Below, piece after piece: positions 3,701 to 23,192 of a stretch of 64,000 nucleotides of DNA. How positions within the stretch are numbered: position 1 is the stretch's first letter; each line of letters opens with the position of its first letter. A program made the position numbers and the translations under genes. The notes under the pieces are model-generated. The model saw nothing but the letters and a program-made list of their open reading frames with translations, made no database searches and was not told the origin of the DNA. This stretch comes from Massilia putida (lineage in GTDB: Bacteria; Pseudomonadota; Gammaproteobacteria; Burkholderiales; Burkholderiaceae_D): positions 6,510,001 to 6,574,000 of the forward strand of contig NZ_CP019038.1 of the NCBI RefSeq assembly GCF_001941825.1, read 5' to 3'.

Positions 3701-3759
3701 TTTGATGCGCCGGCTGGTCATTTTCATTATTGCCGCAGTCGCCGGGCCACCCGGATAAT
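3701..3759 (+). promoter_or_regulatory. Shared-architecture promoter (copy 1) for GH27 gene
   Basis: Half-site A is TTTGAT (core TGAT 3703-3706). Half-site B is TTTTCATTATTG (core TCAT 3724-3727), 21 bp further on. The -35 TTGCCG (3730-3735) begins 6 bp after the half-site B core, and GATAAT (3754-3759) follows at 18 bp spacing. Transcription would start near 3766, which excludes the in-frame upstream ATG at 3765 and supports the GH27 start at 3810. This is the most degenerate copy in half-site A. Confidence 0.65.
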
Positions 3760-3809
3760 GTTGAGTGACTACGTCTGCCGCACCTGTTCAAACCACACTG
3801 GAATTCCCG

Positions 3810-5708
3810 ATGCAAAAGCCAAGGACTGTACGCCGGCTGCCACGCCTGGCATTGTTACCCCTGTTGTTCGCCACCGCCGCGGCGCACGCGGCGACCGATC
3901 CGCTTGCGCCGACGGCGCACTGGAGCGCGTACGCCGCCGGCCGCGCGGCGATGCCGCCGATGGGATGGAGCAGCTGGAACGCGTTCGGCACCGATATCGA
4001 CGAAGCCAAGATACTCGGCGCCGCCCAGCGCATCGTCGACAGCGGACTGGCCGCCAAAGGCTACCGCTACATCAATATCGACGACGGCTGGGCGCTCCGC
4101 CGCCGGCAGCCGGACGGCCGGCTGGTCGCCCGCCCGGACCGCTTCCCGTCCACGGCCGCGGGCGGGTTCCGCCCGTTCACCGACAAGCTGCACGCGATGG
4201 GCCTGAAGGCCGGCATCTACTCGGACCTCGGCCGCAACACCTGCTCGCAGGCGTATGGCGGCGACGACCCCAACCTGCCGAAGGGCAGCGTGCTCGAGCG
4301 CGAAGTCGGCCTGTACGGCCACATCGACCAGGACATCGCCCTGTTCTTCCGCGACTGGGGCTTCGACTTCATCAAGGTCGACGGTTGCGGCCTGCGCGCG
4401 TATGGCGCGGACAGCCCGAAAGTCAAATCGGGCGACTATCGCGCGCTGAAGCCCGTGCTGGACCTGGAATCCGTCACCCGCTCCGACATCCCGGCCGTGC
4501 AGGCGGAATTCACGCAGATCAACGCGGCGCTGAAGCGCAACAATCCCGACGGCGACTTCCTGTTGTCCCTGTGCGTCTGGGGTGCCGCCGACGTGCGCGC
4601 CTGGGGCAAGGACTTCGGCAACATCTCGCGCACGAGCGACGACATCCGCCCGAACTGGCCCCGCCTGCTGAGCAACTACGACAGCGCGGCACGGCGCGAA
4701 CTGTACGCCCATCCGGGCAGCTGGAACGATCCGGACATGCTGTTCATCGGCGCCGGCGACTTCGACGCGAACCACCTGGTCGAAGCGAAGTCGCACTTCG
4801 CGCTGTGGGCCATGCTGAACGCGCCCCTGATGACGGGCGCCGACCTGCGCACGACGCCGCAGGCGCTGATGGACATTTTCGGCAATGCCGACATCATCGC
4901 GCTCAACCAGGACCCGGCCGGCAACCAGGCCGTGCTCGCGTACGACGCCGACGACGTGCAAATCCTCGTCAAGACGCTGGCCTCGGGCGAGAAGGCGGTC
5001 GCCATCTTCAACCGCGGCCTCGCGCCGGTCGACGCCGACCTGACGGCGCAGCACCTCAAGTTCCGCAAGGACGCGACGGTAACGCTCACCGATCTCTGGT
5101 CGAAGGAGAATAGCGCGTTCACGAACGAGACCAAGGTGCGCGTCGCGCCGCGCGAGACGAAGATCTTCCGCGCCCAGGGCACGCGCGAGCTGGCGCAAGG
5201 CCTCTACCTGTCCGAACAGCCGGGCAGCGTGAATCCGGCCGTCGACGGCGTGACGAAGCCGCAGGCCGACCCGACGATCTTCCGCTCGTCGTTCGGCTGG
5301 ACCGGTACCAAGGGCCAGGGCGAACGGCCCATGTATGCCGGCTGGGGCGGCGCGCGCGCCGACAGCACGCCGTACGGCCAGACGCTGCGGATCGCCGGGA
5401 CGACGTACGCTTCGGGCATCGGCATCCTGGCCAATTCCCGGCTGGAGGTGCGCAACCACGATTACCGCCGCTTGAACACCCTCGTCGGCGTCGACGATTC
5501 CGCGCAGGACCGCACGCACGCGGTGACGTTCATGGTCTACGGCGACGGCAAGCTGCTGGCGAAGAGCCGAGCCCTGCGCTGGGGCCAGCCGGCGCAGGCA
5601 TTGACGCTCGATGTGGCCGGCGTCAAGGTGATCGAACTGGTGGCGAAGAGCGCGGGGACGGCCAACGAGCAGTTGCCGGTCAGCTGGGGCAACGCCGCGC
5701 TGCAGTGA
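3810..5708 (+). CDS. Secreted GH27 alpha-galactosidase with C-terminal NPCBM-type module (632 aa)
   Basis: Hydrolyses terminal alpha-galactosyl residues with retention. A signal peptide ending at AAAHA (about residues 1-26) indicates export. The GH27 barrel begins with PPMGWSSWNAFG; the nucleophile Asp lies in FIKVDGCG (about D191) and the acid/base Asp in RTSDDIR (about 277-278). SWNDPDML is also typical. After the family's C-terminal beta domain, residues of about 475-632 resemble an NPCBM carbohydrate-binding module (TYASGIGILANS, VGVDD). ATG 3810 is preferred over 3765 because of the promoter position and the signal peptide. The stop abuts the stop of the opposite esterase gene with no spacer. 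Confidence 0.9.
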   Translation: MQKPRTVRRLPRLALLPLLFATAAAHAATDPLAPTAHWSAYAAGRAAMPPMGWSSWNAFGTDIDEAKILGAAQRIVDSGLAAKGYRYINIDDGWALRRRQPDGRLVARPDRFPSTAAGGFRPFTDKLHAMGLKAGIYSDLGRNTCSQAYGGDDPNLPKGSVLEREVGLYGHIDQDIALFFRDWGFDFIKVDGCGLRAYGADSPKVKSGDYRALKPVLDLESVTRSDIPAVQAEFTQINAALKRNNPDGDFLLSLCVWGAADVRAWGKDFGNISRTSDDIRPNWPRLLSNYDSAARRELYAHPGSWNDPDMLFIGAGDFDANHLVEAKSHFALWAMLNAPLMTGADLRTTPQALMDIFGNADIIALNQDPAGNQAVLAYDADDVQILVKTLASGEKAVAIFNRGLAPVDADLTAQHLKFRKDATVTLTDLWSKENSAFTNETKVRVAPRETKIFRAQGTRELAQGLYLSEQPGSVNPAVDGVTKPQADPTIFRSSFGWTGTKGQGERPMYAGWGGARADSTPYGQTLRIAGTTYASGIGILANSRLEVRNHDYRRLNTLVGVDDSAQDRTHAVTFMVYGDGKLLAKSRALRWGQPAQALTLDVAGVKVIELVAKSAGTANEQLPVSWGNAALQ

Positions 5709-6605
5709 TCACTGGATCAGCTTGCGGTCCCGCAGCCATTCCTCGGCGCGCTTCGGCCACAGCGAGATGTCGCCGTGGCCGGCGCCCATGCCGATGCCGT
5801 GGCCGCCGCGTTCGAAGAGATGCATCTCGGCCGGCACATGGGCGCGGGTGAGGGCCTGGAAGAACAGGATGCTGTTGTCGACCGGGACGGCGCCGTCGTC
5901 CTGGGCGTGGACCAGGAACGTGGGGGGCGTGCGCGGGCCGACGCGGGTCTCGAGCGACATCGCCTTCACCATCTCCGGCGCCGGGTTCGCGCCCAGCAGC
6001 GCGTAGCGCGAACCTTCGTGCGCGGCGGGCGGCAGCAACGTGATCACCGGGTAGACCAGCAGCGCAAAGTCGGGCCGCGCGCTGACGGCGTCCAGCGCCG
6101 CGCCCGTGCGTCCGGCCGGATCGTCGAACAGCGTGGCCGCGCTGGCCGCCAGGTGGCCGCCGGCCGAGCTGCCCATCACGCCCACGCGGTCCGGCGCGAC
6201 GCCGTAGTCGGCCGCATGCGCGCGCACGGTGCGGACCGCGCGCAGGACGTCCTGCAGCGGCGCCGGATGGCCGTAATCCGCCAGCCGGTATTTGAGGACG
6301 AAGGCCGCGACGCCGAGGCTGGACAGCCACTGCGCGTACTGCCGGCCTTCATGGTCGACGGCCAGGAACTGGTAGCTGCCGCCGGGAGCGATGATCACGG
6401 CCGTCCGGGCCGGACGGTCGGTTGCGGCCGGGTAGTAGGTCAGCGTCGGCTGCGAGACATTGCTGATGAAGTCGCCGTTGAGCCTCTCCGGTCCGGGATC
6501 CGCCTTCGCGTTCGGCACGCCTTCCGGCCAGAGTGGAATCACGGCGGTCTGCGCCTGGGCGCCGGCGGCGACGCAGAAGAAGATTGTCAACAACAGTGTA
6601 CGCAT
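5709..6605 (-). CDS. Exported alpha/beta-hydrolase, acetyl (xylan) esterase-like (298 aa)
   Basis: A BD-FAE/Axe-type carbohydrate esterase, probably removing acetyl groups from glycan. It has a signal peptide (ends near GAQA), the oxyanion loop in IIAPGGSYQF, the nucleophile Ser in MGSSAGGHLA, the acid Asp in VHAQDDGAVP and the catalytic His in ERGGHGIG, a complete triad. It is transcribed towards the GH27 gene and divergently from the AraC-type regulator, with its own copy of the shared promoter. Substrate specificity cannot be read from the sequence. Confidence 0.85.
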   Translation of the reverse strand: MRTLLLTIFFCVAAGAQAQTAVIPLWPEGVPNAKADPGPERLNGDFISNVSQPTLTYYPAATDRPARTAVIIAPGGSYQFLAVDHEGRQYAQWLSSLGVAAFVLKYRLADYGHPAPLQDVLRAVRTVRAHAADYGVAPDRVGVMGSSAGGHLAASAATLFDDPAGRTGAALDAVSARPDFALLVYPVITLLPPAAHEGSRYALLGANPAPEMVKAMSLETRVGPRTPPTFLVHAQDDGAVPVDNSILFFQALTRAHVPAEMHLFERGGHGIGMGAGHGDISLWPKRAEEWLRDRKLIQ

Positions 6606-6637: not shown

Positions 6638-6695
6638 ATTCTGGGTACCGCCGGGCGCGCGGCGCAATGATGAAATTGGCGAAGCGCCGTCATGA
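6638..6695 (-). promoter_or_regulatory. Shared-architecture promoter (copy 2) for esterase
   Basis: On the minus strand, the half-site A core TCAT is at 6692-6695 and the half-site B core TCAT, inside AATTTCATCATTG, at 6670-6673, 22 bp on. The -35 TTGCGC is at 6662-6667 and the -10 CAGAAT at 6638-6643 with an 18-bp spacer. The leader to the ATG at 6605 is about 25 nt. Confidence 0.7.
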
Positions 6696-6722: not shown

Positions 6723-6782
6723 ATTTCATGTCGGCCGTTCGCGATTTTCGTAATTGCGGGGCCACGGCGATGTGCGGACAAT
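6723..6782 (+). promoter_or_regulatory. Shared-architecture promoter (copy 3) for membrane AraC regulator 1
   Basis: Half-site A is ATTTCATG (core TCAT 6726-6729). Half-site B is GATTTTCGTAATTG (core TCGT 6748-6751), exactly 22 bp later. The -35 is TTGCGG (6754-6759) and the -10 GACAAT (6777-6782) with a 17-bp spacer. It drives the regulator at 6944, which suggests positive autoregulation. Confidence 0.72.
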
Positions 6783-6943: not shown

Positions 6944-8146
6944 ATGCAAGAGTTTTATAAGAAGGCGCTGTACGTATTCATCCTGATCGTCCTCGCGGAC
7001 GCGCTGCTGGCGATTATGCTCGTCGACCGGAGCTATCTGTCGCAGCCGCTGCTGCCCGCGCAGCAGGGCGGCGACGAGCGGGCGGTCCGCTGGCGCTTCG
7101 GCTTTACGTCGTCGCCCTGGGACGCGCGGGCCATCCACGTCGACCAGTCGGCACGCGACCAGCTGCGTTTCGACCTGAACCTGCCGGCGGACGGCGCGGA
7201 CCCGATCGTGTCCGCGGACCTGCTGGCGGTCGACGGCAAGGGCAAGCCTGCCTTGGCGGACCTGTCGAAATACGGCACCGTCTCGTTCGTCGCGAAATGC
7301 TCCCCCGCCAATTCCATGATGTTCATCGCGTCGATCTACGACGAGCACCTGTCGCAGCCCGGGAATTACCTTACCTATCCGCCGGCGCTGACCTATTTCT
7401 CGTGCAACGAGCAGGGCGTGCCGGTGTCGCTCGACCTGACGCGCCTGACGATTCCCCAGTGGTGGTTCGACACGGTGCACCGCGACCTGTCGCGCCAGGA
7501 TTACGTGCTGGACCGCGTGGAGCGGCTCGTGTTCGGGGCGACGGGGCAGAGTCCCCGGGGCGTTCCGGCCCACGTCGAGATCAGCTGGATCACGCTGCAC
7601 GGCCGCGATTACCGCTACCTCGCCTGGCTGACCGGCCTCGTCGTCGCGGGCTGGATCGCTTTCGGCGTATGGTTCTTCCGGGCCCATGCGCGCGCGCTGC
7701 TCGCGAGCGTGGATACGCAGCTCAAGAAGGACCTGCCGCTCGTCGCCTACCGCCAGCTGACGCTGGAGCCTTACCGCGACAAGGAAAAGGCCGCGGTCCT
7801 GAAATTCATCGCGACGAATTACACCAACACGGAACTGGACCTGGAAGGCGTCGTCGCCGCGACGGGGACGAACCGGACCAAGGTCAACGACGTGCTGAAA
7901 TCGGAACTCGGCATGACGTTCACCAGTTACCTGAACAAGCTGCGCCTGACGGAAGCGGCGCGCCTCCTCACCGAGAAGACCGGCACGACCGTCGCGGAAA
8001 TCGCTTTCTCGGTCGGGTATGCCAACGTCTCGTATTTCAACAAGCTGTTCAAGGAAGAGTACGGATGCACCCCGAAGGCCTTCCGCACGCTGGCGGCGCA
8101 GCAGGAACCGCCGCCCGATCCCCACCAGCAAACGGCCGCGCCGTAA
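6944..8146 (+). CDS. Membrane-embedded AraC-family regulator 1 (400 aa)
   Basis: Predicted inner-membrane one-component transcription factor. TM1 spans about 8-27 and TM2 about 225-246. The 200 residues between them form an extracytoplasmic sensory domain homologous to the CIA30-like domain of its paralogue at 20299, though the DDVMGG signature is lost here. Residues 285-383 are a full AraC/XylS HTH domain with AEIAFSVGYANVSYFNKLFKEEYGCTPKAFR. Charged residues after TM2 (RAHAR) favour a cytoplasmic C-terminus. Start 6944 is chosen because the paralogue begins with the same MQEFYKK and both proteins are then exactly 400 aa. It has no PAS, kinase or arabinose-binding cupin domain. Likely activator of the eight shared promoters, by inference from the AraC-type direct repeat and the neighbourhood. 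Confidence 0.82.
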   Translation: MQEFYKKALYVFILIVLADALLAIMLVDRSYLSQPLLPAQQGGDERAVRWRFGFTSSPWDARAIHVDQSARDQLRFDLNLPADGADPIVSADLLAVDGKGKPALADLSKYGTVSFVAKCSPANSMMFIASIYDEHLSQPGNYLTYPPALTYFSCNEQGVPVSLDLTRLTIPQWWFDTVHRDLSRQDYVLDRVERLVFGATGQSPRGVPAHVEISWITLHGRDYRYLAWLTGLVVAGWIAFGVWFFRAHARALLASVDTQLKKDLPLVAYRQLTLEPYRDKEKAAVLKFIATNYTNTELDLEGVVAATGTNRTKVNDVLKSELGMTFTSYLNKLRLTEAARLLTEKTGTTVAEIAFSVGYANVSYFNKLFKEEYGCTPKAFRTLAAQQEPPPDPHQQTAAP

Positions 8147-8222: not shown

Positions 8223-8284
8223 ATTTTTCATGTGCCCTGTTGGTGATTTTCGGAATTGTCCTGCCGGTTGCTGGCAATCACAAT
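8223..8284 (+). promoter_or_regulatory. Shared-architecture promoter (copy 4) for second TonB receptor
   Basis: Half-site A is TTTTTCAT (core 8228-8231). Half-site B is GATTTTCGGAATTG (core TCGG 8250-8253), 22 bp on. The -35 TTGTCC (8256-8261) and -10 CACAAT (8279-8284) are 17 bp apart. The start site near 8291 rules out translation from 8256 and supports the GTG at 8370. Confidence 0.72.
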
Positions 8285-8369: not shown

Positions 8370-11300
8370 GTGAAGCAGTTTCAGAGAACAGCCATCGCCA
8401 CAGGCGCAGCCCAGTTCGTGCTGATGGCCAGCGGGGCCATGTTTGCGCACGGCGCGTATGCCGCAGACACCGCGAAGAAGGACGACACGAACACCGTGGT
8501 CGTCGTGGGCCAGCGCGCCGCGCTGGAATCGGCCGCCACCCGCAAGAGAACGGCGGACGAGATCATCGACTCCGTCGTCGCCGACGATATCGGCAAACTG
8601 CCGGACAAGTCGGTGACCGAAGTCCTGCAACGCATGCCGGGCGTGACCATCGACCGCGTGCTGGGCCGGGCAGACCCGCTGCAGGGCGTGGGCGAGGACA
8701 ATCGCTTCGCCGCGGAAGGCAGCGGCGTGTCGATCCGCGGCCTGAGCTACGTGCGTTCGGAACTGAACGGACGCGACTCGTTCTCCGCGAACGGCGGACG
8801 TGCACTGAGCTTCGAGGACGTGCCGCCCGAACTGTTGGCGGGCATCGACGTGTACAAGAACCCGTCCGCCGAGCGGATCGAGGGCGCCATCGGCGGCCTG
8901 GTCGACCTGCGCACCGCGATGCCGTTCGACTTCAAGGGATTCAAGGGCGGGGCGACGATGGAAGCCTCGCGTTCGCAGCTGCGCGGGACCACCGCGCCGG
9001 CGTTTTCCGGCATGCTGTCGAACCGCTGGAACACCAGCCTGGGCCAGGTCGGCGCGTTGATCGACGTGTCGCGTTCGAAGATCGCCACGCGCAGCAACGG
9101 CATGGGTGTCGGCCACTATTTCCCGCGCACCGATGCCGTGGTGGGCGACACCAGCGGCCAGGAGCGCTGGGTTCCCCCGGGCGTCAACTGGAACACGGGC
9201 GACTTCGATCGCACCCGCGAGGGCCTCTATGGCGCGCTGCAGTGGAAAAAGGGCGACTGGGTCTCCGGTCTCACCTATTTCAGGTCGAAATACAAGCTGG
9301 CGACGGCGGAGAACCAGCAGTTCATGCAGGTGAATCCGCGTAACGTCATGGTCTCCGACGCCACGTTCGACAGCCACGGCGCACTGTTGACCGGCACGCT
9401 GACCGATCCCCAGGACAAGGGCCTGTTGATCGGCTCCAACGCGCGCAGCGTGGGCCGCGAATCCGCGACGACCGACGTCGCATGGAACACGCAGTGGAAG
9501 GCTTCGGACCAGTGGTCCTTCGGCCTGGATCTGCAGCACACCCGGTCGACCACGGAAGGCTGGGACAACCTGGTGGCGTTGAACGCCCTGATGGCGAAGC
9601 AGGTCGTGGACCTGAGGGGGGACATCCCGCAGGTCACCTTCGACGCCTCGGACCGGGCTTTCCTGTCGAACACGGCCAACTACAACTGGGACTCCACGCA
9701 GCAGCACAGGGACGTGGCCACCGCCACCCAGAACTCGCTGAAACTGGACGCCAAGTACACGTTCGATCATCCGGTTCTCCAGGACCTGCGTTTCGGTTTC
9801 CGCCAGACCGAGCGTGATTCGCTCACGCAGGCGAATACGCCAAATGACCAGTGGAGCGGACTCGGCGCCGCGTGGGCGGTCGGGTCAAGCTGGCAGCCGC
9901 TGAGCTCGATGATCTCCCTGGGCGATCCTCGCTTCAACAAATTCAACACCACGCAGTTGTTCAGTGGCTTCTTCAACGGCAAGGCATCGGTGCCGACGCT
10001 CGTGGTGCCGACGACGGAGTTGACGGGTGGCGGCTCGCCGCCGCCCGGCTTCGCCACGCTGCACGAATTCGTCAAAGTGGTCTGCAAACCCAGCCACCTG
10101 AGCGACGGTATCTGCAACTGGACGCCTGCTCCGTTCGGCGACCCCATCGCACGCAACAAGCAGGGCGAGCGCACGCAGGCCATCTACGGCCAGCTTCGTT
10201 TCGGCTTCGATAACCTGCGCTTCCCGGTGGACGGCAACGTGGGCGTGCGCGTCGTCCGCACGAAGGAAATGGCGGAGGGCTACACGCTGCTCACCGCCAC
10301 GAAGCCGGAGGATGGCAGGGCTGGTGTTCCCGTCTTCGCCGGGATGTCGAACAAGCAGACATTCGATAACACCTATACGAATACCTTGCCGACGCTGAAC
10401 CTGAGGATGAAGGCCAGCGACGGGCTGCAGTTCCGCTTCGCGGCGTCGCAGGGCATGTCGCGGCCCGATTTCTACAAGATGCAGGCCTATACGACGCTGG
10501 GCGTGACGCCGAAGTTCGACCCCGATCCGGCGGACCCGACCAAACAGGTGCTCAAATCGGTCGCCTTCACCGGTAACGCCAACGGCAACACGGCGCTCAA
10601 ACCGACCAGGTCGAACAATCTCGACCTGACGGCAGAGTACTACTTCGGCAAGGGCAGCTCGCTCACACTGGCGTTGTTCAACAAGAAGCTCAAGGACATC
10701 GTCATCGACAAGACGACGCTCCTTCCGATCAACGACGTGACCGGCCAGTCGCACGACTTCCTGCTCACCGCGCCGGTCAACGGGGCACGCGGTCGCGTCA
10801 GCGGCCTGGAGCTCGGTTACCAGCAGTATTTCGACATGCTGCCTGGCCTGCTGTCCGGCTTCGGCGTATCGGCCAACTACACCTACATCAACAGCAAACT
10901 CGACATGGGCTTGCCGGGGAACCGTAAATGGTGCACGCCGAGCACGAACGAGACGACGATCGTCAGCGCGCTGGGCGGGTGCGACACCGACGGCCGCTAC
11001 TTCAACGGCGACCTGCCCGTGATGGGCCTGTCGAAGAACGCGTACAACCTGGCGCTGCTGTACGACAAGGGACCGGTGTCGGCGCGTGTGGCGTACAGCT
11101 GGCGCTCGAGCGCGATGACGGCGATTCACACGTGGGGCACGTACGACTCCAGCGGCATCTCGATGAATCCGGACGACCCGAAATTCAATCAAGGCTACTC
11201 GGTGAACTACGTGCTGCCGGCGTGGAGCGGTGCCTACGGACAGGTTGACATGGGCGTCCAGTACAAGGCCACCGATAACCTGACCGTGAACTTCGACGTG

Positions 11301-11417
11301 TCGAACCTCACGGACCAGCTCTACAAGTCGTACAACCAGCAGGGCATCGGCATGAAGCTGAACGGCGTGTATTACACCGGACGGCGTTTCACGTTGTCGG
11401 CGCGCTACGCGTTCTAA
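8370..11417 (+). CDS. TonB-dependent outer-membrane receptor, glycan-type, GTG start (1015 aa)
   Basis: Outer-membrane sugar importer of the TonB-Xanth-Caul group. GTG 8370 has AGAGGAG 7 bp upstream and gives a clean signal peptide (MKQFQRTAIATGAAQ..., cut near AYAA); the longer in-frame ATG at 8256 would overlap the promoter. Plug motifs are DDIGKLPDKSVTEVLQRMPGV, VSIRGLSYVRSELNGRDSF and NPSAERIEGAIGGLVDLRT; the barrel ends in ARYAF. It is followed by a strong terminator and then the PrnA-like halogenase-family gene, a pairing known from sugar-uptake loci of Caulobacter and Xanthomonas relatives. Substrate not determinable. Confidence 0.92.
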   Translation: MKQFQRTAIATGAAQFVLMASGAMFAHGAYAADTAKKDDTNTVVVVGQRAALESAATRKRTADEIIDSVVADDIGKLPDKSVTEVLQRMPGVTIDRVLGRADPLQGVGEDNRFAAEGSGVSIRGLSYVRSELNGRDSFSANGGRALSFEDVPPELLAGIDVYKNPSAERIEGAIGGLVDLRTAMPFDFKGFKGGATMEASRSQLRGTTAPAFSGMLSNRWNTSLGQVGALIDVSRSKIATRSNGMGVGHYFPRTDAVVGDTSGQERWVPPGVNWNTGDFDRTREGLYGALQWKKGDWVSGLTYFRSKYKLATAENQQFMQVNPRNVMVSDATFDSHGALLTGTLTDPQDKGLLIGSNARSVGRESATTDVAWNTQWKASDQWSFGLDLQHTRSTTEGWDNLVALNALMAKQVVDLRGDIPQVTFDASDRAFLSNTANYNWDSTQQHRDVATATQNSLKLDAKYTFDHPVLQDLRFGFRQTERDSLTQANTPNDQWSGLGAAWAVGSSWQPLSSMISLGDPRFNKFNTTQLFSGFFNGKASVPTLVVPTTELTGGGSPPPGFATLHEFVKVVCKPSHLSDGICNWTPAPFGDPIARNKQGERTQAIYGQLRFGFDNLRFPVDGNVGVRVVRTKEMAEGYTLLTATKPEDGRAGVPVFAGMSNKQTFDNTYTNTLPTLNLRMKASDGLQFRFAASQGMSRPDFYKMQAYTTLGVTPKFDPDPADPTKQVLKSVAFTGNANGNTALKPTRSNNLDLTAEYYFGKGSSLTLALFNKKLKDIVIDKTTLLPINDVTGQSHDFLLTAPVNGARGRVSGLELGYQQYFDMLPGLLSGFGVSANYTYINSKLDMGLPGNRKWCTPSTNETTIVSALGGCDTDGRYFNGDLPVMGLSKNAYNLALLYDKGPVSARVAYSWRSSAMTAIHTWGTYDSSGISMNPDDPKFNQGYSVNYVLPAWSGAYGQVDMGVQYKATDNLTVNFDVSNLTDQLYKSYNQQGIGMKLNGVYYTGRRFTLSARYAF

Positions 11418-13143: not shown

Positions 13144-13194
13144 TCGCCAATGGTGGATTTCATAATTGCGGGCCACGGGGCCGGCGGGCACTAT
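13134..13194 (+). promoter_or_regulatory. Shared-architecture promoter (copy 5) for GH29-GH97-CE1 operon
   Basis: The half-site A core TCGT (13138-13141) overlaps the last codon and stop of the halogenase gene. Half-site B is GGATTTCATAATTG (core TCAT 13160-13163), 22 bp on. The -35 TTGCGG (13166-13171) and -10 CACTAT (13189-13194) have a 17-bp spacer. The leader to ATG 13256 is about 55 nt. Confidence 0.72.
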
Positions 13195-13255
13195 CCCGTG
13201 GATAACCGCGAAGAGCCGCCCCGCAGCGGCCATCATCTACCTTGGAAAGATACCG

Positions 13256-14889: not shown

Positions 14890-16920
14890 ATGAAGCACGC
14901 ACCACGACATCTGATCCCGAAGGTTTTCGCCATCGCCGCTGTCGCAGCCATCATGCCGGCACACGCCGCCTCGCCCTATACGGTCGTGTCGCCCGACCAC
15001 CGCACCCGCATCGAACTGACCGCCGCCGATGGCAATCTGGCGTACACGGTCATCCGCGACGGCGTGACCGTCATCGCGCAATCGCCCCTCGGCCTGAGCA
15101 CGACCCAGGGCGCGCTGGACGGCACCACCTTGCGTGTCACCGGTGTCGAGAACAAGACCGTCGACGAGACGTGGCGTCCCGTCGCCGGCAAGGCGGCCAG
15201 CGTGGCGGACCGCTACAGCCAGGTCGAGCTGCAACTGGCCGGCAAGGACAAGCCCATCAAGGTCAACCTCGTCGCCCGCGCCTACGACGACGGCGTCGCG
15301 TTCCGCTACGTGCTGCCGCGCCAGCCGATAGCGGGCGAACCCCGGGGCGATCTCGGCATCAACGGCGAGGCCACGCGCTTCGACTTCCCGGCCGCCTACC
15401 GCTGCTGGGGCTTCAATCCGGGCCGCTTCGACAGCTCGCACGAGGGCGAATTCGACCCGGTGCCGGCGTCCGCCATCCGTCCCCACCACACGTTCGACGC
15501 GCCCCTCGTGTGCAAGACCGGCAACAAGAAGACCACGTTCGCCATCGCGGAAGCGGACAAGCGCGGTTACGCCGGCGCGTACTACTCGGGCCGCGGCGAC
15601 GGCGGCCTGGGCGTGGCCGTCGTGCTCGCGCCGCACTACGAAGGCGACGTGCAGGTGCAGGGCCCGGCCGTGCGCGCCAACCTGGCCGACGCGCCGCTCG
15701 CCACGCCGTGGCGCGTGGTGATGGTGGCCGACACGCCGGGTGGCCTGACGGCATCGAGCCTGATCGCGACGCTGGGCAGCCCGTCGACGATCGCGGATAC
15801 GAGCTGGATCAAGCCGGGCAAGGCGTCGTGGGACTGGTGGAACGGCTGGGCCGTCGACATGCCGGGCGCCGGCATCAACACCGCGACGTACAAGGCCTAC
15901 ACGGATTTCGCGGCCAGCCTTGGCCTGCAGTATATCCTCATCGACGAGGGTTGGTACGAGGGCAGTTCGGAAAAGCCGCTGCCGTCCAATGCCTTGAAGC
16001 CGATCCGCGCGATGGACATGCTGGAAATCATCCGGCATGCGAAGGAGAAGGGCATCGGCGTGTGGGTCTGGCTGCAGTGGAAGCAGCTCGACCGCCAGAT
16101 GGATGACGCCTTCGCGCTGTACGAATCGTGGGGCATCAAGGGCGTCAAGGTCGACTTCATGGACCGCACCGACCAGGACATGGTCGACTTCTACCACAAG
16201 ATCCTGTCCAAGGCCGCCAAGCACCACCTGATGGTCGACCTGCACGGCGCCTACCCGCCGGACGGCCTCACGCGCACCTATCCGAACTACATGACGCAGG
16301 AAGGCGTGATGGGCGCGGAGTACAACAAGTGGAGCGCGCGCGTCACGGCCACGCACAACGTGACGCTGCCGTTCACGCGCATGATCCTGGGCCCGATCGA
16401 CTACACGCCGGGCGGCTTCCGCTCGCTCGCGCCGAAAGACTTCATGGCGCAGCGGCGCAACGTGAAGCCGTTCGTGCAGACGACGCGCGGCCAGGCCGTC
16501 GCGATGTACGTCGTGTACGATTCGCCGTTCGGCATGGTGGCGGACAGCCCGGACGCCTACCGCAACGCGGACGGCACCTGGGCCGACGGCGCGAAGTTCA
16601 TCGGCGCCGTGCCGACCACGTGGGACGAGACGCGCGTGCTGGACGGCGACATCGGCCAGTACATCGTGACGGCCCGCCGCAAGGGCGGCACCTGGTACAT
16701 CGGCGCGATGACCAACGAGTCGGGACGCACGGTCGACGTGCCGCTGGACTTCCTGGCGCCGGGTGTCGCTTATTCGGCCGAGATCCTGGAAGACGGCAAG
16801 GATCGCAACCACCTGGCCGCGCGCGGCGCACGCGTGACGGGCAAGAGCCGCCTGAAGCTGACGCTCGCCCCGTCCGGCGGCGCCGTGGCCGTGCTGACGG
16901 CCGGCGCGGACAAGCACTGA
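14890..16920 (+). CDS. Exported GH97 glycosidase, retaining alpha-galactosidase type (676 aa)
   Basis: The signal peptide ends near PAHA. The N-terminal beta-super-sandwich, TIM barrel and C-terminal beta domain follow GH97 order. The barrel carries GIKGVKVDFMD with Asp422 at the position of the nucleophile of retaining GH97 alpha-galactosidases (the BT1871 type), plus TQEGVMGAEY with the candidate acid/base Glu. It lies 2 bp behind the fucosidase and 10 bp ahead of the esterase, so it is co-transcribed. Compare the divergent paralogue at 29888-31786, which lacks this Asp. Confidence 0.88.
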   Translation: MKHAPRHLIPKVFAIAAVAAIMPAHAASPYTVVSPDHRTRIELTAADGNLAYTVIRDGVTVIAQSPLGLSTTQGALDGTTLRVTGVENKTVDETWRPVAGKAASVADRYSQVELQLAGKDKPIKVNLVARAYDDGVAFRYVLPRQPIAGEPRGDLGINGEATRFDFPAAYRCWGFNPGRFDSSHEGEFDPVPASAIRPHHTFDAPLVCKTGNKKTTFAIAEADKRGYAGAYYSGRGDGGLGVAVVLAPHYEGDVQVQGPAVRANLADAPLATPWRVVMVADTPGGLTASSLIATLGSPSTIADTSWIKPGKASWDWWNGWAVDMPGAGINTATYKAYTDFAASLGLQYILIDEGWYEGSSEKPLPSNALKPIRAMDMLEIIRHAKEKGIGVWVWLQWKQLDRQMDDAFALYESWGIKGVKVDFMDRTDQDMVDFYHKILSKAAKHHLMVDLHGAYPPDGLTRTYPNYMTQEGVMGAEYNKWSARVTATHNVTLPFTRMILGPIDYTPGGFRSLAPKDFMAQRRNVKPFVQTTRGQAVAMYVVYDSPFGMVADSPDAYRNADGTWADGAKFIGAVPTTWDETRVLDGDIGQYIVTARRKGGTWYIGAMTNESGRTVDVPLDFLAPGVAYSAEILEDGKDRNHLAARGARVTGKSRLKLTLAPSGGAVAVLTAGADKH

Positions 16921-16930: not shown

Positions 16931-17851
16931 ATGACCGACCATCTGTCCCGCGTCCTCATCGCCGCCGCGCTGTGCGCCGTCGGCACCGTCGCGCACGCGC
17001 AGGAGCTCGACGTCAACGCGGACAAGGCGCGCGCCGACTTCGCCCGCCCCGTCGTCCTCGCGGCGGACGACGTACGCGCGTTCGCGCCGCCGCCGGCCGG
17101 CTTTGCGGATGCTCGGCCCGGCGCCGCGCAGGGCAAGGTGGAGACGTTCACGTATGCGTCGGTCGTCACGGGCACGCGCCGTACGGCCAACGTCTGGCTG
17201 CCGCCCGGCTACGACAAGACCCGGCGCTATCCCGTGCTGTATCTGTTGCACGGCATCGGCGGCAACCAGGACGAGTGGTGCGGCTATGTGCGCGCGCAGG
17301 ACGTGCTCGACAACCTGACGGCCGCCGGCAAGGCCGTGCCGATGATCGTCGTGATGCCGAACGGCCGCGCGCTGGCGGACGACCGCTCGCCGCCGGAAAA
17401 CAAGGTCTTCACGCCGGAAAACGCGGCCGGTTTCGCGCGCTTCGAGCGCGACCTGCTCGATTCGCTCATCCCGGCCGTCGATGCCGCGTATCCGACGCAC
17501 GCGGACAGTGCCCACCGCGCGATCGGCGGGCTGTCGATGGGCGGCGGGCAGGCGCTGAACTTCGGCCTGGGCCATCCGGAGGCATTCAACTGGGTGGCGG
17601 GCTTCTCGCCGGCCCCCAACACGGAGCCACCGGCGAAACTGGCGGGCGAGGCGGCGCGGGCGAAGGGCAAGCTGAAACTGGTGTATCTGTCATGCGGCAA
17701 CCGCGATGGCCTGATCAACGTCGCGCAGGGCGTGCACCGCCAGCTGCGCGAGCAGGGCGTCGCCCACGTGTGGAACGTGGACGGGTATGGGCATGACCGG
17801 GACAGCTGGGCGGAAAACCTGTACCACTACGCCCAGCTGCTCTTCCGTTAA
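16931..17851 (+). CDS. Exported CE1/esterase-D-like alpha/beta-hydrolase (306 aa)
   Basis: The signal peptide ends at AHAQ. It is a feruloyl/acetyl-esterase-type hydrolase with PVLYLLHGIGGNQDEW, nucleophile Ser in IGGLSMGGGQ, Asp in CGNRDGLI and His in DGYGHDRDSW. GAGGAGCC precedes ATG 16931. Last gene of the fucosidase-GH97 operon; its stop overlaps the stop of the opposite GH42 gene by 3 bp. It probably removes ester decorations that block the glycosidases. Confidence 0.85.
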   Translation: MTDHLSRVLIAAALCAVGTVAHAQELDVNADKARADFARPVVLAADDVRAFAPPPAGFADARPGAAQGKVETFTYASVVTGTRRTANVWLPPGYDKTRRYPVLYLLHGIGGNQDEWCGYVRAQDVLDNLTAAGKAVPMIVVMPNGRALADDRSPPENKVFTPENAAGFARFERDLLDSLIPAVDAAYPTHADSAHRAIGGLSMGGGQALNFGLGHPEAFNWVAGFSPAPNTEPPAKLAGEAARAKGKLKLVYLSCGNRDGLINVAQGVHRQLREQGVAHVWNVDGYGHDRDSWAENLYHYAQLLFR

Positions 17852-19959
17852 TTTTCCTCGACGATGACGAGATCCCACGGCGCCAGCGTGACGGTCTCGT
17901 CGCGCTTCACGGCCCGCGACGTCAGCAGGTCCGTCCCCGCCTTGTGGCGGTACGTGAAGCTCGCGGGCGCGCCCGAATAATTGAAGTAGTAGCGGATCGT
18001 CTTGCCGAACCGGTTCACGCCCGTGCGCGCCTGGATGTGCGGCGGCAGTTGCTGGTCCGGCCCGATCAGGCCCCGTTCCTGCAGCACCGATCGCAGCACG
18101 GCCTTCTGCAGCTTGTCCGACAAATACGTGCCTTCGTAGACGGCCTTGCCCGTGCCGTACTGGTTGGCCGTGATGGCGGGCCAGCGGCCGAAGAACGGGT
18201 GGTCGTACCAGGCGAGGGCCTTCGCGGTGTCGAGCTGGAGGAACTCGGCCCAGTGGCGCACCTTGTTGTCGTCGCCGGCCTGGAACGGATCGCCCTTCAG
18301 CGCCAGGGGCTGCGCGAGGTTCGAGAATTCCTGGTAGTGGAAGCCGAGAACCTGGCGCAGCGGGCCCGGCGCCGTCGTCCAGCGCACGGCCGCGTTCTCG
18401 TTCGCGAAGCCGCTCTTGAAGCCCATCACGACATGGCCGCCCTTGCGCACGAAGTCCGAGATGCGCTGCAGCAGCGCGTCGTCCGCGATGTACAGCGAGG
18501 GCACGACCAGCACCTTGTACGCGGACAGGTCCTGCGTGTCCGGGAACACGAAGTCGGTGCCGACGTTCAGGTCGTACAGCGCGCGGTGGATCTGGCGCAC
18601 CTGCGAGCCGTAGTCGGCCTGGCTAGCCCCGCCGCCCCATTGCGACTGCTTCGCGAACGGCATGTCGTTGATGGCGTTCAGCGAATCGCGGCTCCACAGG
18701 ATCGCCACGTCGTTCTGGATGCGCAGGTCGACGAGGCGTTGGCCGATCTTCTGGAGTTCGCGGCCCGTGCGGCTCATCTCGGCGTACGCGCGGTTCGGCT
18801 CCAGGTCGTGTCCGAGGACGCCTTTCCAGTACGTCTCCTGGTTCGCGTGGATCGACGCCCAGTGCCAGTACTCGACCATGTTGGCGCCGTTGGACAGATG
18901 CGTGTAGACGTCCTCGCGGAACTGGCCGTCGTACGGCGGGTATTGGAACGACGAGCTCCAGTCGGTCGTCTGCGCATTCGTCTCCGTGACGAGGAAGTTG
19001 CCGCGCTTGAGCGAGCGCGTGAAGTCGGCGTCCAGCTTCTGGGCGGCACCGTTGTACTGGTCCTGCGTGCCCCAGTGGTAGATGTTCACGCCCGGGACGT
19101 CGAGCGCGCGCGCGACGGCTTCCTCGTTCACGTCCGCGTGCAGCGAGCCGGCGAAATCGTGCGTGACGAACTGGCGCGGCCCCGCGCACTCGCGGATGAG
19201 TTGCGCCTGCCAATGCAGGAAATCCGTGACGCGCATCTGGCTCCAGCGCGACCATTCGAGCTTGTAGCCCGTGCTCTGCGCGCCGTCCGGACGGGGCAGG
19301 TCCGTCCACGAATGCAGGTCCTGGCCCCAGTAGTTCAGGAACCACGTCTTGCTGAGATTCTCCGGCGTGCCGAATTTCTTTTCCAGGTAGTGCTGGAAGC
19401 GGATGAACACATCGTCGTTGGCGGCGCCGTAGCTGCCCGTCTCGTTGTCGACTTGCCAGCCGATGACGTTCGGGTTGTCCTTGTAGTGGGCGGCGATGCG
19501 GCGGATCAGGCGCTCCGCGTAGAAGCGGTACACGGGCGAATCCGTGTTCATGTTCTGGCGCATGCCGTACGTGTTTTTCGCGCCATTGAATTTCGTGGCC
19601 AGGATTTCCGGATGCTGGTGCGCCATCCACGCGGGAATCGAATACGTGGGCGTGCCCATGATGACCTTGATGCCGGCCTTGCCCATCGCGTCGACCACGC
19701 GGTCCATCCACGCGGTGTCGAAGCGGCCGTCCTCCGGCTCCCACAGGCTCCACGTCGATTCGCCCAGGCGCACGACGTTGAAGCCGGCCGCCTTGATCAT
19801 CCGGACGTCCTTGTCCAGCCGTTCGTAGGGCATGTATTCGTGATAGTACGCGGCGCCGTACAGGACGGTCGGGAAGTCGGGCTGCGCGGCCGCCCCGCGC
19901 GCGCCGGTGCAAGCGAGTGCGCACGCCAGCGCGAGCGGGAGGAGTCTCCGTGTGGACAT
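17848..19959 (-). CDS. Exported GH42 beta-galactosidase (703 aa)
   Basis: Retaining beta-galactosidase with a signal peptide (ends near GAAAQ), unusual in that many GH42 enzymes are cytoplasmic. The acid/base Glu lies in IGWQVDNETG and the candidate nucleophile Glu in LVTETNAQTTDW. A GATase-like trimerisation domain (about 405-610) and a C-terminal beta domain with an FNYSGAPA segment follow. Length fits the family. Transcribed leftward from its own copy of the shared promoter and divergent from the second membrane AraC regulator. Export implies that galactosides are cleaved in the periplasm or outside. Confidence 0.88.
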   Translation of the reverse strand: MSTRRLLPLALACALACTGARGAAAQPDFPTVLYGAAYYHEYMPYERLDKDVRMIKAAGFNVVRLGESTWSLWEPEDGRFDTAWMDRVVDAMGKAGIKVIMGTPTYSIPAWMAHQHPEILATKFNGAKNTYGMRQNMNTDSPVYRFYAERLIRRIAAHYKDNPNVIGWQVDNETGSYGAANDDVFIRFQHYLEKKFGTPENLSKTWFLNYWGQDLHSWTDLPRPDGAQSTGYKLEWSRWSQMRVTDFLHWQAQLIRECAGPRQFVTHDFAGSLHADVNEEAVARALDVPGVNIYHWGTQDQYNGAAQKLDADFTRSLKRGNFLVTETNAQTTDWSSSFQYPPYDGQFREDVYTHLSNGANMVEYWHWASIHANQETYWKGVLGHDLEPNRAYAEMSRTGRELQKIGQRLVDLRIQNDVAILWSRDSLNAINDMPFAKQSQWGGGASQADYGSQVRQIHRALYDLNVGTDFVFPDTQDLSAYKVLVVPSLYIADDALLQRISDFVRKGGHVVMGFKSGFANENAAVRWTTAPGPLRQVLGFHYQEFSNLAQPLALKGDPFQAGDDNKVRHWAEFLQLDTAKALAWYDHPFFGRWPAITANQYGTGKAVYEGTYLSDKLQKAVLRSVLQERGLIGPDQQLPPHIQARTGVNRFGKTIRYYFNYSGAPASFTYRHKAGTDLLTSRAVKRDETVTLAPWDLVIVEEN

Positions 19960-19999: not shown

Positions 20000-20056
20000 A
20001 TTCTGCCGTGGCGCGGCAGGGGGACGCAATTATGAAATCCACCGTTCCGGAAACGA
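20000..20056 (-). promoter_or_regulatory. Shared-architecture promoter (copy 6) for GH42
   Basis: On the minus strand the half-site A core TCGT is at 20053-20056 and half-site B GGATTTCATAATTG (core TCAT) at 20032-20035, 21 bp on. The -35 is TTGCGT (20024-20029) and the -10 CAGAAT (20000-20005) with an 18-bp spacer. The ATG at 19959 follows about 35 nt later. Confidence 0.72.
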
Positions 20057-20083
20057 TATGTCGCAGGCGCGGGCGCTGTGCAA

Positions 20084-20142
20084 TTTCGTATCGGGGGCTG
20101 ACGTTTTTCACAATTGCGGCGGCGCGCGGCGGCTCTCACAAT
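20084..20142 (+). promoter_or_regulatory. Shared-architecture promoter (copy 7) for membrane AraC regulator 2
   Basis: Half-site A is ATTTCGTA (core TCGT 20086-20089). Half-site B is GTTTTTCACAATTG (core TCAC 20108-20111), 22 bp on. The -35 TTGCGG (20114-20119) and -10 CACAAT (20137-20142) have a 17-bp spacer. As with copy 3, the promoter belongs to a regulator gene, consistent with autoregulation. Confidence 0.72.
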
Positions 20143-20298: not shown

Positions 20299-21501
20299 AT
20301 GCAAGAGTTTTACAAGAAGTCGCTGCTGCTTCTGATCGCGCTGCTGCTCGCCGATGCGCTGCTCGCGGTCCTGTTCGTCCACCTGAGCCAGCCGGCTTAT
20401 TCGCTGTCACCGGCGGCCAGGGACGGCATCCACTGGGAACGTGTGCCCACGTCGGACGACGTGATGGGCGGCACGTCGACGGTGAGGCTGCACGATGCCG
20501 CAGCGGGTGCGATGGTGTTCGATTACACGCTCACGAAAGTGGCCAAATACCCGTTCGCCGGCGCGCGCTTCGTGGCCAAGGATGCGAAGGGGGAACTGGC
20601 CCCGCTCGACCTGCGGAAATACGACACCATCACGTTCGTCGCGCGCTGCACGCCCGCCGATCCCATGTTGCTGGGTGTGACGACCTTCGACGACAAGGTG
20701 TCGGTCCCCGGCCAGCTCGTCACTTACCGATCGCCCGGCACTTTCTTCTCTTGCAACGAGCAGGGCGTGCACGTGTCCCTCGACATGCGGCGCCTGACCG
20801 TTCCCGACTGGTGGCTGTCGATGATGAAGCTGCCGCTGACGTCCCAGGATTACGAGCTGGACAAAGTGGTGCAGATTTCTTTCGGATCGAGTTCGCAAAC
20901 GCCGTTCGATGTCGATTCGCATGTGGAAATCAGCAATCTCGAATTGCGCGGACATGATTATCGATATATCGTCGCGCTCGCGCTTATTCTGGTATCCGGG
21001 TGGATTCTATTCGGCCTATGGTTTTTCCGCACCCACACGCGGACATTGGCCGCCAGCCTGAATGGCAGGCTGAAGACGGATTTGCCGCTCGTCGCTTATC
21101 GCCAATTAACCGTGCAACCTCATCGGGACGAGGAACAGGCATCGGTCCTGAAATTCCTCGCGACGAATTACACGAATCCCGAACTGGATCTGGAAAGCGT
21201 GGTGGCCGGTACCGGTGCGAACCGGAACAAGGTGAATGACGTGCTGAAAACGGAACTCGGCATGACATTCACCGGTTATGTGAATAAATTAAGGCTGACC
21301 GAAGCGGCGCGCCTGCTGACGGAAAAGAGCACCGCCACCGTGGCCGAAATCGCGTATTCGGTCGGCTACGCCAACGTCTCGTATTTCAATCGGCTGTTCA
21401 AGGAAGAGTACGGCTGCACGCCGAAGGCGTTCCGGACGCTCGCGCTCCAGCACCCGCCCGCGTCCGCCGACCCGCCGCCAAAAATGGTGGGAAACGGCTG
21501 A
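20299..21501 (+). CDS. Membrane-embedded AraC-family regulator 2 with CIA30-like sensor (400 aa)
   Basis: Paralogue of the protein at 6944 with the same length and layout: TM1 about 8-27, a CIA30-like extracytoplasmic domain about 40-220, TM2 about 225-246 and an AraC HTH domain 285-383. The sensor keeps WERVPTSDDVMGG (about 46-58), the signature of the CIA30 (PF08547) galactose-binding-like jelly roll. The HTH is nearly identical to its paralogue (AEIAYSVGYANVSYFNRLFKEEYGCTPKAFR), so both probably read the same DNA. ATG 20299 is chosen because it aligns with MQEFYKK; ATG 20293 two codons upstream is an alternative. Neighbours: GH42 (divergent) and a XylR-like regulator downstream. Confidence 0.85.
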   Translation: MQEFYKKSLLLLIALLLADALLAVLFVHLSQPAYSLSPAARDGIHWERVPTSDDVMGGTSTVRLHDAAAGAMVFDYTLTKVAKYPFAGARFVAKDAKGELAPLDLRKYDTITFVARCTPADPMLLGVTTFDDKVSVPGQLVTYRSPGTFFSCNEQGVHVSLDMRRLTVPDWWLSMMKLPLTSQDYELDKVVQISFGSSSQTPFDVDSHVEISNLELRGHDYRYIVALALILVSGWILFGLWFFRTHTRTLAASLNGRLKTDLPLVAYRQLTVQPHRDEEQASVLKFLATNYTNPELDLESVVAGTGANRNKVNDVLKTELGMTFTGYVNKLRLTEAARLLTEKSTATVAEIAYSVGYANVSYFNRLFKEEYGCTPKAFRTLALQHPPASADPPPKMVGNG

Positions 21502-21876: not shown

Positions 21877-21906
21877 ATGATTCAGAAAGCGATGGGCGCG
21901 CGATGA
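21877..21906 (+). CDS. Nine-codon leader ORF overlapping the XylR-like start
   Basis: ATG 21877 is preceded by a good Shine-Dalgarno (CAGGAGACGACA) and encodes MIQKAMGAR, stopping with TGA 21904-21906. That stop overlaps the ATG (21903-21905) of the regulator, which has no comparable ribosome-binding site of its own. The arrangement suggests translational coupling: ribosomes ending the leader would restart on the regulator. The alternative is that it is chance. Confidence 0.45.
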   Translation: MIQKAMGAR

Positions 21907-23105
21907 AGACGACAAAAGCCTACCGTATCGCACTGCTTTTCAACGGCAACAAGACATTCGATCGCGAAGTGATCGCCGGTATTGCCGCTCACCTGGGCGG
22001 CACCCGCGTCGCTTGGGATTTATTTCTGGAAGAGGATTTCCGTCTGCGCCTGACCGGAATCGACCGCTGGCAGGGCGACGGCGTCATCGCCGATTTCGAC
22101 GACCCGGCCGTGGCCAAGGCCCTGGCCGATTGCCCGGTGCCCGTCGTGGCCGTGGGCGGGTCGTATGCGGACGAATCCGGGTATCCGTCCGGCGTGCCGT
22201 ATGTCGCGACCGACAACTTCAAACTCGTCAAGCTGGCCCGCGACCACCTGATCGACGTCGGCCTGCAGCGCTTCGCCATGTTCAGCCTCCCCGAGGCGCA
22301 GGAATGCCGCTGGGCCATCGAGCGCGAACGTGCGTTCCGCTGCTTGACGTCGGAGGACCGGATGGAAGCGGAAATCTTCCGCGGCTGCGCCACGAACGCG
22401 GCGTCGTGGGACAGCGCGGTGCAGGGGCAGATCGACTGGCTGCGCAGCCTGCCCAAGCCGGTGGGCGTCATCGCCGTCACGGACGCGCGCGCGCGCCAGC
22501 TGCTGCAGGCCTGCGCCATCGCCGGCATCTCGGTACCGGAACAGGTGGCGCTGATCGGCATCGACAACGACCCGCTCGTGCGCATGCTGACGCGGATCCC
22601 GCTCAGCTCCGTGATCCAGGGCGCGCACGAAATGGGGCGGACGGCGGCGCATCTGCTGGAGCAGATGCTGCACGGCGTAAGGCTGACGAACACGCGCATC
22701 CTCGTGCCGCCCGCGGGCATCAACGTGCTCGCGTCGAGCCTCTACCAGGACGTCAAGCATCCGCATGTGATGCGGGCCTGCCACTACATCCGCCAGTACG
22801 CGTGCCAAGGCATCAAGACGCACCAGGTGGCCGAATACGTGGGCGTGTCGCGCTCGTCGCTCGAAGTGTACTTCCGCCAGGAGCTGGGTTGCAGCGTGCA
22901 CGACATGATCCTGCGGTCCAAGCTGGATGCCGCCAAGGCCGGCCTGGAAAGCGGCGAGCGCAGTATCGCGGACGTGGCGCTGGGCTGCGGCTTCACGTCC
23001 ACCCAGTACATGCACCTCGTGTTCAAGCGCGAACTCGGTTGCACGCCGCGCGCGTGGCGCGACCGGGCACTGGGCGAGCGCACCGGCATGACCGCGGCGG
23101 CGTAA
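21903..23105 (+). CDS. XylR-like regulator: periplasmic-binding-protein-like sensor plus AraC HTH (400 aa)
   Basis: Cytoplasmic one-component regulator of the XylR type. Residues 7-270 form a LacI-like sugar-sensing domain (YRIALLFNGNKTFDREVIAGI, ALIGIDNDPLVRML, GINVLASS), and about 290-390 an AraC HTH (IADVALGCGFTSTQYMHLVFKRELGCTPRAWR). E. coli XylR senses xylose with this architecture; here the neighbours are a GH42, a CIA30-AraC regulator and an aldose epimerase, so the ligand may be another aldose. Start 21903 overlaps the stop of a nine-codon leader. No membrane segment, unlike the other two AraC proteins. Confidence 0.85.
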   Translation: MKTTKAYRIALLFNGNKTFDREVIAGIAAHLGGTRVAWDLFLEEDFRLRLTGIDRWQGDGVIADFDDPAVAKALADCPVPVVAVGGSYADESGYPSGVPYVATDNFKLVKLARDHLIDVGLQRFAMFSLPEAQECRWAIERERAFRCLTSEDRMEAEIFRGCATNAASWDSAVQGQIDWLRSLPKPVGVIAVTDARARQLLQACAIAGISVPEQVALIGIDNDPLVRMLTRIPLSSVIQGAHEMGRTAAHLLEQMLHGVRLTNTRILVPPAGINVLASSLYQDVKHPHVMRACHYIRQYACQGIKTHQVAEYVGVSRSSLEVYFRQELGCSVHDMILRSKLDAAKAGLESGERSIADVALGCGFTSTQYMHLVFKRELGCTPRAWRDRALGERTGMTAAA

Positions 23106-23131
23106 CGCGAAGGCAGGCGCGGGGCGTCGGC

Positions 23132-23192
23132 GAAATCGTTCGCCCCGTTGGTGATTTTCGTAATTGAAAGGCCATGCACGGGCCGGGAGAAT
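23132..23192 (+). promoter_or_regulatory. Shared-architecture promoter (copy 8) for aldose epimerase
   Basis: Half-site A is AAATCGTT (core TCGT 23136-23139). Half-site B is GATTTTCGTAATTG (core TCGT 23158-23161), 22 bp on. The -35 TTGAAA (23164-23169) and -10 GAGAAT (23187-23192) are 17 bp apart. Half-site B and its flank are identical to copy 3 over GATTTTCGTAATTG. The epimerase start at 23226 lies 34 bp beyond the -10. Confidence 0.72.

Follow-up and report, generated by a model that had tools for sequence, protein, structure and literature searches.

Eight repeated operator-promoters in a glycan-utilization cluster of Massilia putida as probable targets of a XylR-type activator

The 64,000-nucleotide stretch of Massilia putida DNA analyzed here (NZ_CP019038.1, positions 6,510,001 to 6,574,000), referred to as the window, carries a cluster of genes for glycoside hydrolases (GH), esterases, a TonB-dependent receptor and an aldose 1-epimerase, together with a gene for a homologue of the xylose regulator XylR and two genes for further regulators with an AraC-type helix-turn-helix (HTH), termed membrane AraC 1 (6944) and membrane AraC 2 (20299). 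The original prediction, made from the letters alone, placed a shared direct repeat at eight promoters of this cluster. The positions and strands of all eight sites were confirmed when the sequence was re-read, and the genes behind them are, as had been stated, glycan genes and two AraC-type regulator genes (Table 1). By gene limits, including three inferred starts (8370, 13256, and 23226), all eight sites are intergenic; that at 13134 overlaps with the final 10 bp of the halogenase gene. The sites at 6638..6695 (-) and 6723..6782 (+) are arranged back to back.

Table 1. Sites and genes of the cluster. Positions refer to the window unless a contig is named; R2 is the 69-column site profile described in the text.
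Feature	Position	Strand	Architecture or domains	R2 whole-genome E value	Remarks
Site before GH27 gene	3701..3759	+	repeat 21 bp, -35 TTGCCG, 18 bp, -10 GATAAT	1.1e-4	
Site before BD-FAE esterase gene	6638..6695	-	repeat 22 bp, -35 TTGCGC, 18 bp, -10 CAGAAT	4.4e-9	
Site before membrane AraC 1 gene	6723..6782	+	repeat 22 bp, -35 TTGCGG, 17 bp, -10 GACAAT	2.1e-10	
Site before TonB receptor and halogenase-like genes	8223..8284	+	repeat 22 bp, -35 TTGTCC, 17 bp, -10 CACAAT	8.3e-9	
Site before GH29-GH97-esterase genes	13134..13194	+	repeat 22 bp, -35 TTGCGG, 17 bp, -10 CACTAT	4.8e-10	
Site before GH42 gene	20000..20056	-	repeat 21 bp, -35 TTGCGT, 18 bp, -10 CAGAAT	1.8e-7	
Site before membrane AraC 2 gene	20084..20142	+	repeat 22 bp, -35 TTGCGG, 17 bp, -10 CACAAT	4.5e-10	
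Site before aldose 1-epimerase gene	23132..23192	+	repeat 22 bp, -35 TTGAAA, 17 bp, -10 GAGAAT	3.0e-11	26 bp past xylR
New site before second GH29 fucosidase gene	C3:1645163-1645204	-	-10 CACAAT at 17 bp		found with profile R1
XylR	21903..23105	+	PBP1_XylR and Peripla_BP_3 ligand part, AraC-type HTH (HTH_18) (Pfam)		proposed binder of all eight sites
Membrane AraC 1	6944..8146	+	predicted transmembrane helix, extracytoplasmic beta-sandwich, transmembrane helix, AraC HTH		proposed target
Membrane AraC 2	20299..21501	+			proposed target; 56% identical to membrane AraC 1
GH27	3810..5708	+	with NPCBM domain		target
Esterase	5709..6605	-	BD-FAE type, alpha/beta		target
TonB-dependent receptor	8370..11417	+			start inferred; longest open reading frame (ORF) would begin within the promoter
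Tryptophan-halogenase family gene	11626..13143	+			downstream of TonB receptor gene, same strand
GH29 alpha-L-fucosidase	13256..14887	+			start inferred
GH97	14941..16920	+			
Putative esterase	16931..17851	+	Pfam Esterase		CE1 in the original prediction
GH42 beta-galactosidase	17848..19959	-			
Aldose 1-epimerase	23226..24083	+			start inferred

The eight sites share a layout in which a first half-site, WTCRT, is followed 21 to 22 bp later by a second, TTTCRTAATTG, whose TTG forms the -35 element, with a -10 element at 17 or 18 bp. The predicted repeat distance was borne out, with 22 bp in six sites and 21 bp in two (3701 and 20056). A repeated core does exist in the first half-site, but its proposed form, TTTCRT, was inexact: it is present unaltered in three of the eight sites (6723, 8223, and 20084), TTTGAT is found at 3701 and ATCRT in four, so that WTCRT fits better. 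TTTC and ATTG of the second half-site are invariant in the alignment of all eight sites, and most carry TTGGTGA between both half-sites. The register of the -35 TTG is constant throughout, as claimed, but the offset, counted from the start of the second core, is 8 bp and not 6. The -10 hexamers and their spacing held for every site: NANNAT lies downstream of TTGNNN at 17 bp in five sites and at 18 bp in three, that is, in 8/8 cases versus 13/432 control offsets. The AraC-type, class-II-like geometry, a direct repeat overlapping the -35 in fixed register, thus stands for all eight promoters. The araI site of the class II activator AraC likewise consists of two direct half-sites two turns apart, of which the downstream one overlaps the -35, and the window promoters resemble it in this geometry.

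Exact matches to the second half-site in the forms TTTCRNAATTG and TTTCRTAATTG number 6 and 4 in the window, versus 0.06 and 0.01, respectively, per dinucleotide shuffle (100 shuffles). A position-profile scan with shuffled control, as had been suggested, upheld the family: upon leave-one-out scoring among 127,909 non-training window positions, seven of the eight sites ranked first and the minus-strand site at 20056 second, and none of 20 dinucleotide-shuffled windows attained the score of any left-out site. The whole genome (7.52 Mb, three contigs) was scanned with two profiles, namely, R1, which has 44 columns and was built on the eight sites, and R2, which has 69 columns and was built on 64 sites (41 R1 matches from relatives, 14 sites from xylR loci, and nine from this genome); the 41 are what remained of 48 R1 matches after exclusion of L137:17062 and six that scored below 16.5 bits. 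R1 returned nine matches at E<=4.4e-4, namely, the eight sites and a new one. R2 returned eleven at E<=0.01, the next match having an E value of 0.286; its additional sites, one before a GH74 xyloglucanase gene (E 0.0011, -10 CACAAT at 18 bp) and one before a GH97 gene (C3:4976302, E 0.0098), are in neither training set. All three sites outside the window are upstream of glycoside hydrolase genes (GH29, GH74 and, weakly, GH97). Two R1 matches inside genes, C3:2981137 (E 0.5) and C3:2112268 (E 1.5), were regarded as chance, as were four R2 matches with E values of 0.286 to 0.797, two of which (C3:450803 and C3:1273706) have coordinates within genes.

A clear link emerges between the presence of this site in a genome and that of xylR. 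Co-occurrence was determined in 195 genomes of the family, counting R1 sites at E<=0.05 and XylR and membrane AraC each at E<=1e-30, by which 66 genomes were positive for the site, 54 for XylR and 6 for membrane AraC. Site and xylR were found together in 51 genomes, the site only in 15, xylR only in 3 and neither in 126 (Fisher P 1.6e-29). The corresponding numbers for site and membrane AraC were 5, 61, 1, and 128 (P 0.018). All 22 genomes with strong sites (E<=0.001) possess xylR, whereas 17 of them lack membrane AraC at E<=1e-30. In each of the 51 genomes with both, the site is located on the contig of xylR, at a distance of <=300 bp in 30 and of <=10 kb in 49 (measured from the first-listed xylR copy where a genome has several). 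M. putida itself has one XylR match at E<=1e-30. XylR was not detected at E<=1e-40 in any of 368 other genomes of the class, for which up to five candidates per genome were scored; R2 matches at E<=0.01 occur in 24 of these genomes and are partial only, covering at most 54 of 69 positions with at most 22.2 bits. These comparisons argue strongly for XylR (21903-23105), and not the proteins encoded at 6944 and 20299, as the regulator of the eight sites, an assignment that we consider highly probable. The association of site and xylR is observed directly across genomes, and from it we infer that XylR itself binds the sites.

The original prediction had assumed one activator type, and a single AraC-type activator is indeed supported; co-occurrence does not support its proposal of the 6944 or 20299 HTH as the binder. 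In such a reading, the membrane AraC proteins would bind the eight sites and regulate their own synthesis, which would be in line with the facts that two of the sites precede their genes, that they possess a good HTH of the AraC type and that sites are present in five of the six family genomes with membrane AraC. However, xylR is also present in all five of these genomes. In addition, 77 membrane-AraC loci were examined among the matches listed (25 gammaproteobacterial and 52 Oxalobacteraceae), a scope that applies to all counts of such loci given here. Neither xylR nor a site (E<0.001) was found in any of the 25 gammaproteobacterial loci, which are from Cellvibrio-like and other bacteria. Among the Oxalobacteraceae loci, a site at this threshold was present in 17 of the 20 with xylR in the locus versus 8 of the 32 without it, the other 24 being devoid of one; altogether, 49 of the 57 loci without xylR had no site. 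The 6944 locus has its closest orthologues in five of the eight site-bearing loci without xylR (L201-L205), and xylR probably sits farther along in these, because of the synteny with the window and because L218, L219, and L239 carry xylR on the contigs of L201, L202, and L205. At a looser threshold (E<=0.1), weak matches appear in two further xylR-less Oxalobacteraceae loci, L217 and L224. Since strong sites mostly occur without the membrane AraC proteins, and most xylR-less loci have no site, these proteins are neither needed nor enough. Furthermore, another kind of element is recognizable by eye as common to the upstream regions of a third paralogue and four orthologues, and the recognition helices of the membrane AraC proteins are unlike those of XylR. 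The membrane AraC proteins were therefore rejected as the binder, as the site does not track them across genomes, and this reading is very improbable. As a separate observation, four distant membrane-AraC-like matches (L242, L244, L247, and L250) adjoin a XylR that is 65-68% identical to that of the window, and a site (E<0.001) was found in one of the four.

The repeated element might also reflect the shape of a strong or extended sigma-70 promoter and lack a dedicated regulator, a view that draws on the fact that the -35 and -10 belong to the conserved block. A second conserved block, WTCRT, is however present two turns upstream, at 21-22 bp, strong sites are restricted to xylR genomes, and just ~11 copies are found in 7.5 Mb. 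We consider this explanation the least credible of all. An HrpX PIP box, a direct repeat of the form TTCGB-N15-TTCGB that goes with an HrpX regulator, was a further candidate, but the co-occurrence of site and xylR left no need for it.

Homology between XylR of the window and that of E. coli (4FE4/4FE7) extends over residues 4-387, with an E value of 7e-112. At the ends of the HTH, SRSSLE and QYM or QYL are kept in this protein and in five other XylRs of the family (the L145 row was excluded from this comparison), E. coli XylR has SRSNLE and QYF, and the window membrane AraC proteins have NRTKVN or NRNKVN and SYFN at the same places. The operators are also similar in layout, with two half-sites ~21 bp apart that abut the -35 in E. 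coli. By eye, the xylA promoter of E. coli K-12 reads CATAATTGAGC-N17-CAATAT, and AAAATCGTAATC...GTAATTG is found upstream of xylF. Also upstream of xylF is AAAATCGTAATCGAAAGATAAAAATCTGTAATTG, the first 13 bases of which are identical to window positions 13134-13146; the site at 13134..13194 has AAAATCGTAATCG in common with this stretch. Excerpts of PMC7567609 describe two XylR sites at xylF that are three bases apart and report that XylR with xylose causes activation. The two systems differ in their targets, the window sites lying before genes for polysaccharide enzymes, one TonB receptor and the two membrane regulators. With respect to AraC, the difference resides in the ligand domain: that of AraC is of the cupin type, whereas the window XylR subfamily has a LacI-type domain.

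The genes behind the sites in relatives were identified in a sample of twenty stretches with 48 R1 matches at E<=0.1. The next gene was identified for 37 of these, being a TonB receptor in 8 cases, dehydratase-like in 7, GH74-like in 4, and xylR, xylF, GH31 and GDSL esterase in 2 each; xylA, GH3, GH5, GH29, GH42, SASA esterase, BD-FAE esterase, epimerase, halogenase-like and membrane AraC genes were found once each. Among the 45 matches in which ATTG could be located (it could not in the remaining 3 of 48), 43 had a correctly spaced -10, an element that is not part of R1, versus 77 of 2430 control offsets. Genes for xylose uptake or catabolism are behind sites in L147, L149, and L153. The seven dehydratase-like genes, 69-76% identical to the L153 member, for which the Pfam FAA_hydrolase match is slightly under the cut-off, probably encode the xylose-catabolic 2-keto-3-deoxyxylonate dehydratase. 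In L141, a back-to-back pair of GH42 and membrane AraC genes with two sites is found, as at window positions 20000-20142.

Several observations weigh against control of these sites by XylR or against the inferred extent of its regulon. A site at E<=0.05 was detected in 15 of 141 family genomes without xylR (best E 0.0016), which is about twice the chance expectation, and none was found in 3 of the 54 genomes with xylR. In relatives, the next gene was not identified for 10 of the 48 R1 matches (two of these, L143:8733 and L137:8339, may be wrong ORF picks), and one site has no gene behind it at all. R2 matches equalling the E value of the GH74 site occur in 2 of the 368 other class genomes, and matches equalling that of the GH97 site in 24; as 3.7 genomes would be expected at E<=0.01, the E values are several-fold too hopeful there. 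At the GH97 site (C3:4976302), no matching -10 was found at the proper register, and this site is therefore tentative only. The E. coli operators were not found at significance with either profile: the best R2 score over xylA is 2.7 bits (E 0.95), and the xylF operator was missed by R1 and R2. The link to these operators is consequently drawn from reading by eye, protein homology and the excerpts of PMC7567609. Finally, the known role of XylR is the control of xylose uptake and catabolism, and in this genome no site was found before a xylose gene. Neither xylA (in a search run without a positive control alongside) nor a close xylF (best match 27% identical) was found, and the stretch with a dehydratase homologue has no R2 site at E<=1 even with filters off; the genes served by the sites found here would thus be those for polysaccharide enzymes, for uptake and for the pair of membrane regulators, and not those of xylose catabolism. 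This dehydratase homologue is 73% identical, with one TGA within the match. It is beside a LacI-like gene (by eye) in L171 (C3:753001-770000), a probable xylose-catabolic locus that has no XylR-type site.

We propose that the eight promoters are operators of XylR, an AraC-family activator with a LacI-type sugar-binding domain that is encoded in the same cluster. Its two half-sites, WTCRT and TTTCRTAATTG, in direct repeat end on the -35, so that XylR carrying its ligand (D-xylose in the case of E. coli) would be in contact with RNA polymerase and would switch on a weak sigma-70 promoter whose -10 is CANAAT-like. The inducer in M. putida is presumably xylose as well, and binding of XylR would result in activation. 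In relatives, the same site would serve xylose transport and catabolism in addition to xyloglucan enzymes. The targets found here comprise GH29 (twice), GH74, GH97, GH42, GH27, esterases, a TonB receptor, an epimerase and the two membrane AraC proteins. The substrate appears to be xyloglucan, given the GH74 (related to xyloglucanases by phmmer), the GH29 and GH42 of this genome and the GH31, GH74, GH5, and GH3 of relatives; GH27 and GH97 would also be compatible with other galactose-bearing glycans. It is likely that this XylR regulon has turned from xylose catabolism to xyloglucan breakdown and also drives two membrane AraC regulators.

Xyloglucan utilization loci are known in Bacteroides, Cellvibrio and Xanthomonas. 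Such loci of other Gram-negative bacteria resemble the XylR-site genes of this group (GH74/GH5, GH31, GH3, beta-galactosidase, alpha-fucosidase, and TonB receptor) and differ in the regulator, which here would be a XylR activator of the AraC type. XygS/XygR, a xyloglucan two-component regulator named in the reference list of PMC10766802, is of a different kind, and a literature search covering open-licence papers revealed no xyloglucan regulon under an AraC-type XylR in Betaproteobacteria. The present case would illustrate how a pentose-catabolism activator can be redirected to a whole polysaccharide, and a formerly anonymous repeat becomes a named candidate operator that can be tested and has ~11 targets genome-wide. 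In practical terms, footprinting with the HTH of 6944 or 20299, as originally proposed, would probably have failed.

The two membrane AraC proteins point to a receptor type in which a carbohydrate-binding module (CBM)-like outer domain appears fused across the membrane to an AraC HTH, here under XylR-type promoters. The structure predicted from nine aligned members comprises a helix at 2-30, a beta-sandwich at 31-221, a long helix from 223 and the AraC HTH; model quality is moderate, with a mean predicted local distance difference test score (pLDDT) of 77 and a predicted template modelling score (pTM) of 0.52. Judged from their sequence, both helices are probably membrane spans. Pfam recognizes the HTH only in 6944-8146 and 20299-21501. 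Outside the HTH, the best Foldseek matches were CBM families 11, 30, and 29 and also chains of complex I assembly intermediates with NDUFAF1. These proteins thus look like one-chain glycan receptors with a CBM11/CBM30-like outer domain. Regulators of the ToxR/CadC type are membrane-tethered one-component regulators, and the predicted 6944 and 20299 proteins resemble them in combining a DNA-binding domain, a membrane span and an outer sensor in one chain, but differ in having a C-terminal AraC-type HTH, two predicted spans and a CBM-like outer domain. Among the matches listed, the family occurs in Massilia/Duganella and in Cellvibrio-like bacteria, and the nearest named relatives are Massilia strains. 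A limited literature search yielded no publication on a CBM-like outer domain joined through the membrane to an AraC HTH.

These features raise the possibility of a second regulatory tier, in which the membrane AraC proteins would be produced mainly under conditions of XylR activity and would act on operators other than the XylR sites; this would add to XylR control rather than replace it. Each of the two genes has a XylR-type promoter of its own, one such pair recurs in L141, and the predicted fold of the outer domain is a beta-sandwich resembling CBM11/CBM30, but for paralogues 1 and 2 no operator came to light and confidence in the model is moderate, as stated; we would put this arrangement at somewhat below an even chance. 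A full two-tier xyloglucan programme in this Massilia-like lineage is slightly more tentative still: XylR, freed from xylose catabolism, would respond to xylose released inside the cell and switch on the enzymes, uptake and the two membrane AraC receptors, which in turn would read periplasmic glycan via their CBM-like domains and act through a further set of operators.

The third membrane AraC paralogue (L061:9212-10429), which is 61% identical to 6944, adjoins GH74. An upstream element like AAATTTYTGCATYNTSATAKAAA is common to it and the four orthologues (L206, L212, L214, and L215) when inspected by eye (L061 ~9075-9125), and a looser version is also found before the L061 GH74 gene (~10595-10640). 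This element is a candidate operator of the membrane AraC family. The minus strand of L063 (7288-9555) has a sensor-kinase-like ORF of 755 amino acids (by eye), and its N-terminal part matches the membrane AraC sensor domain (query residues 106-281, E 2.9e-5), so that one sensor appears with two kinds of output. Next to the cluster, a block at 24466-31786 (TonB receptor, GH43, LacI regulator, and GH97) has no XylR-type site by R2 and is perhaps LacI-controlled. Tryptophan-halogenase family genes recur near TonB receptors in these glycan loci, namely, at 11626-13143 of the window, at L135:4309-5805 and 12583-14145, and at L151:9966-11489.

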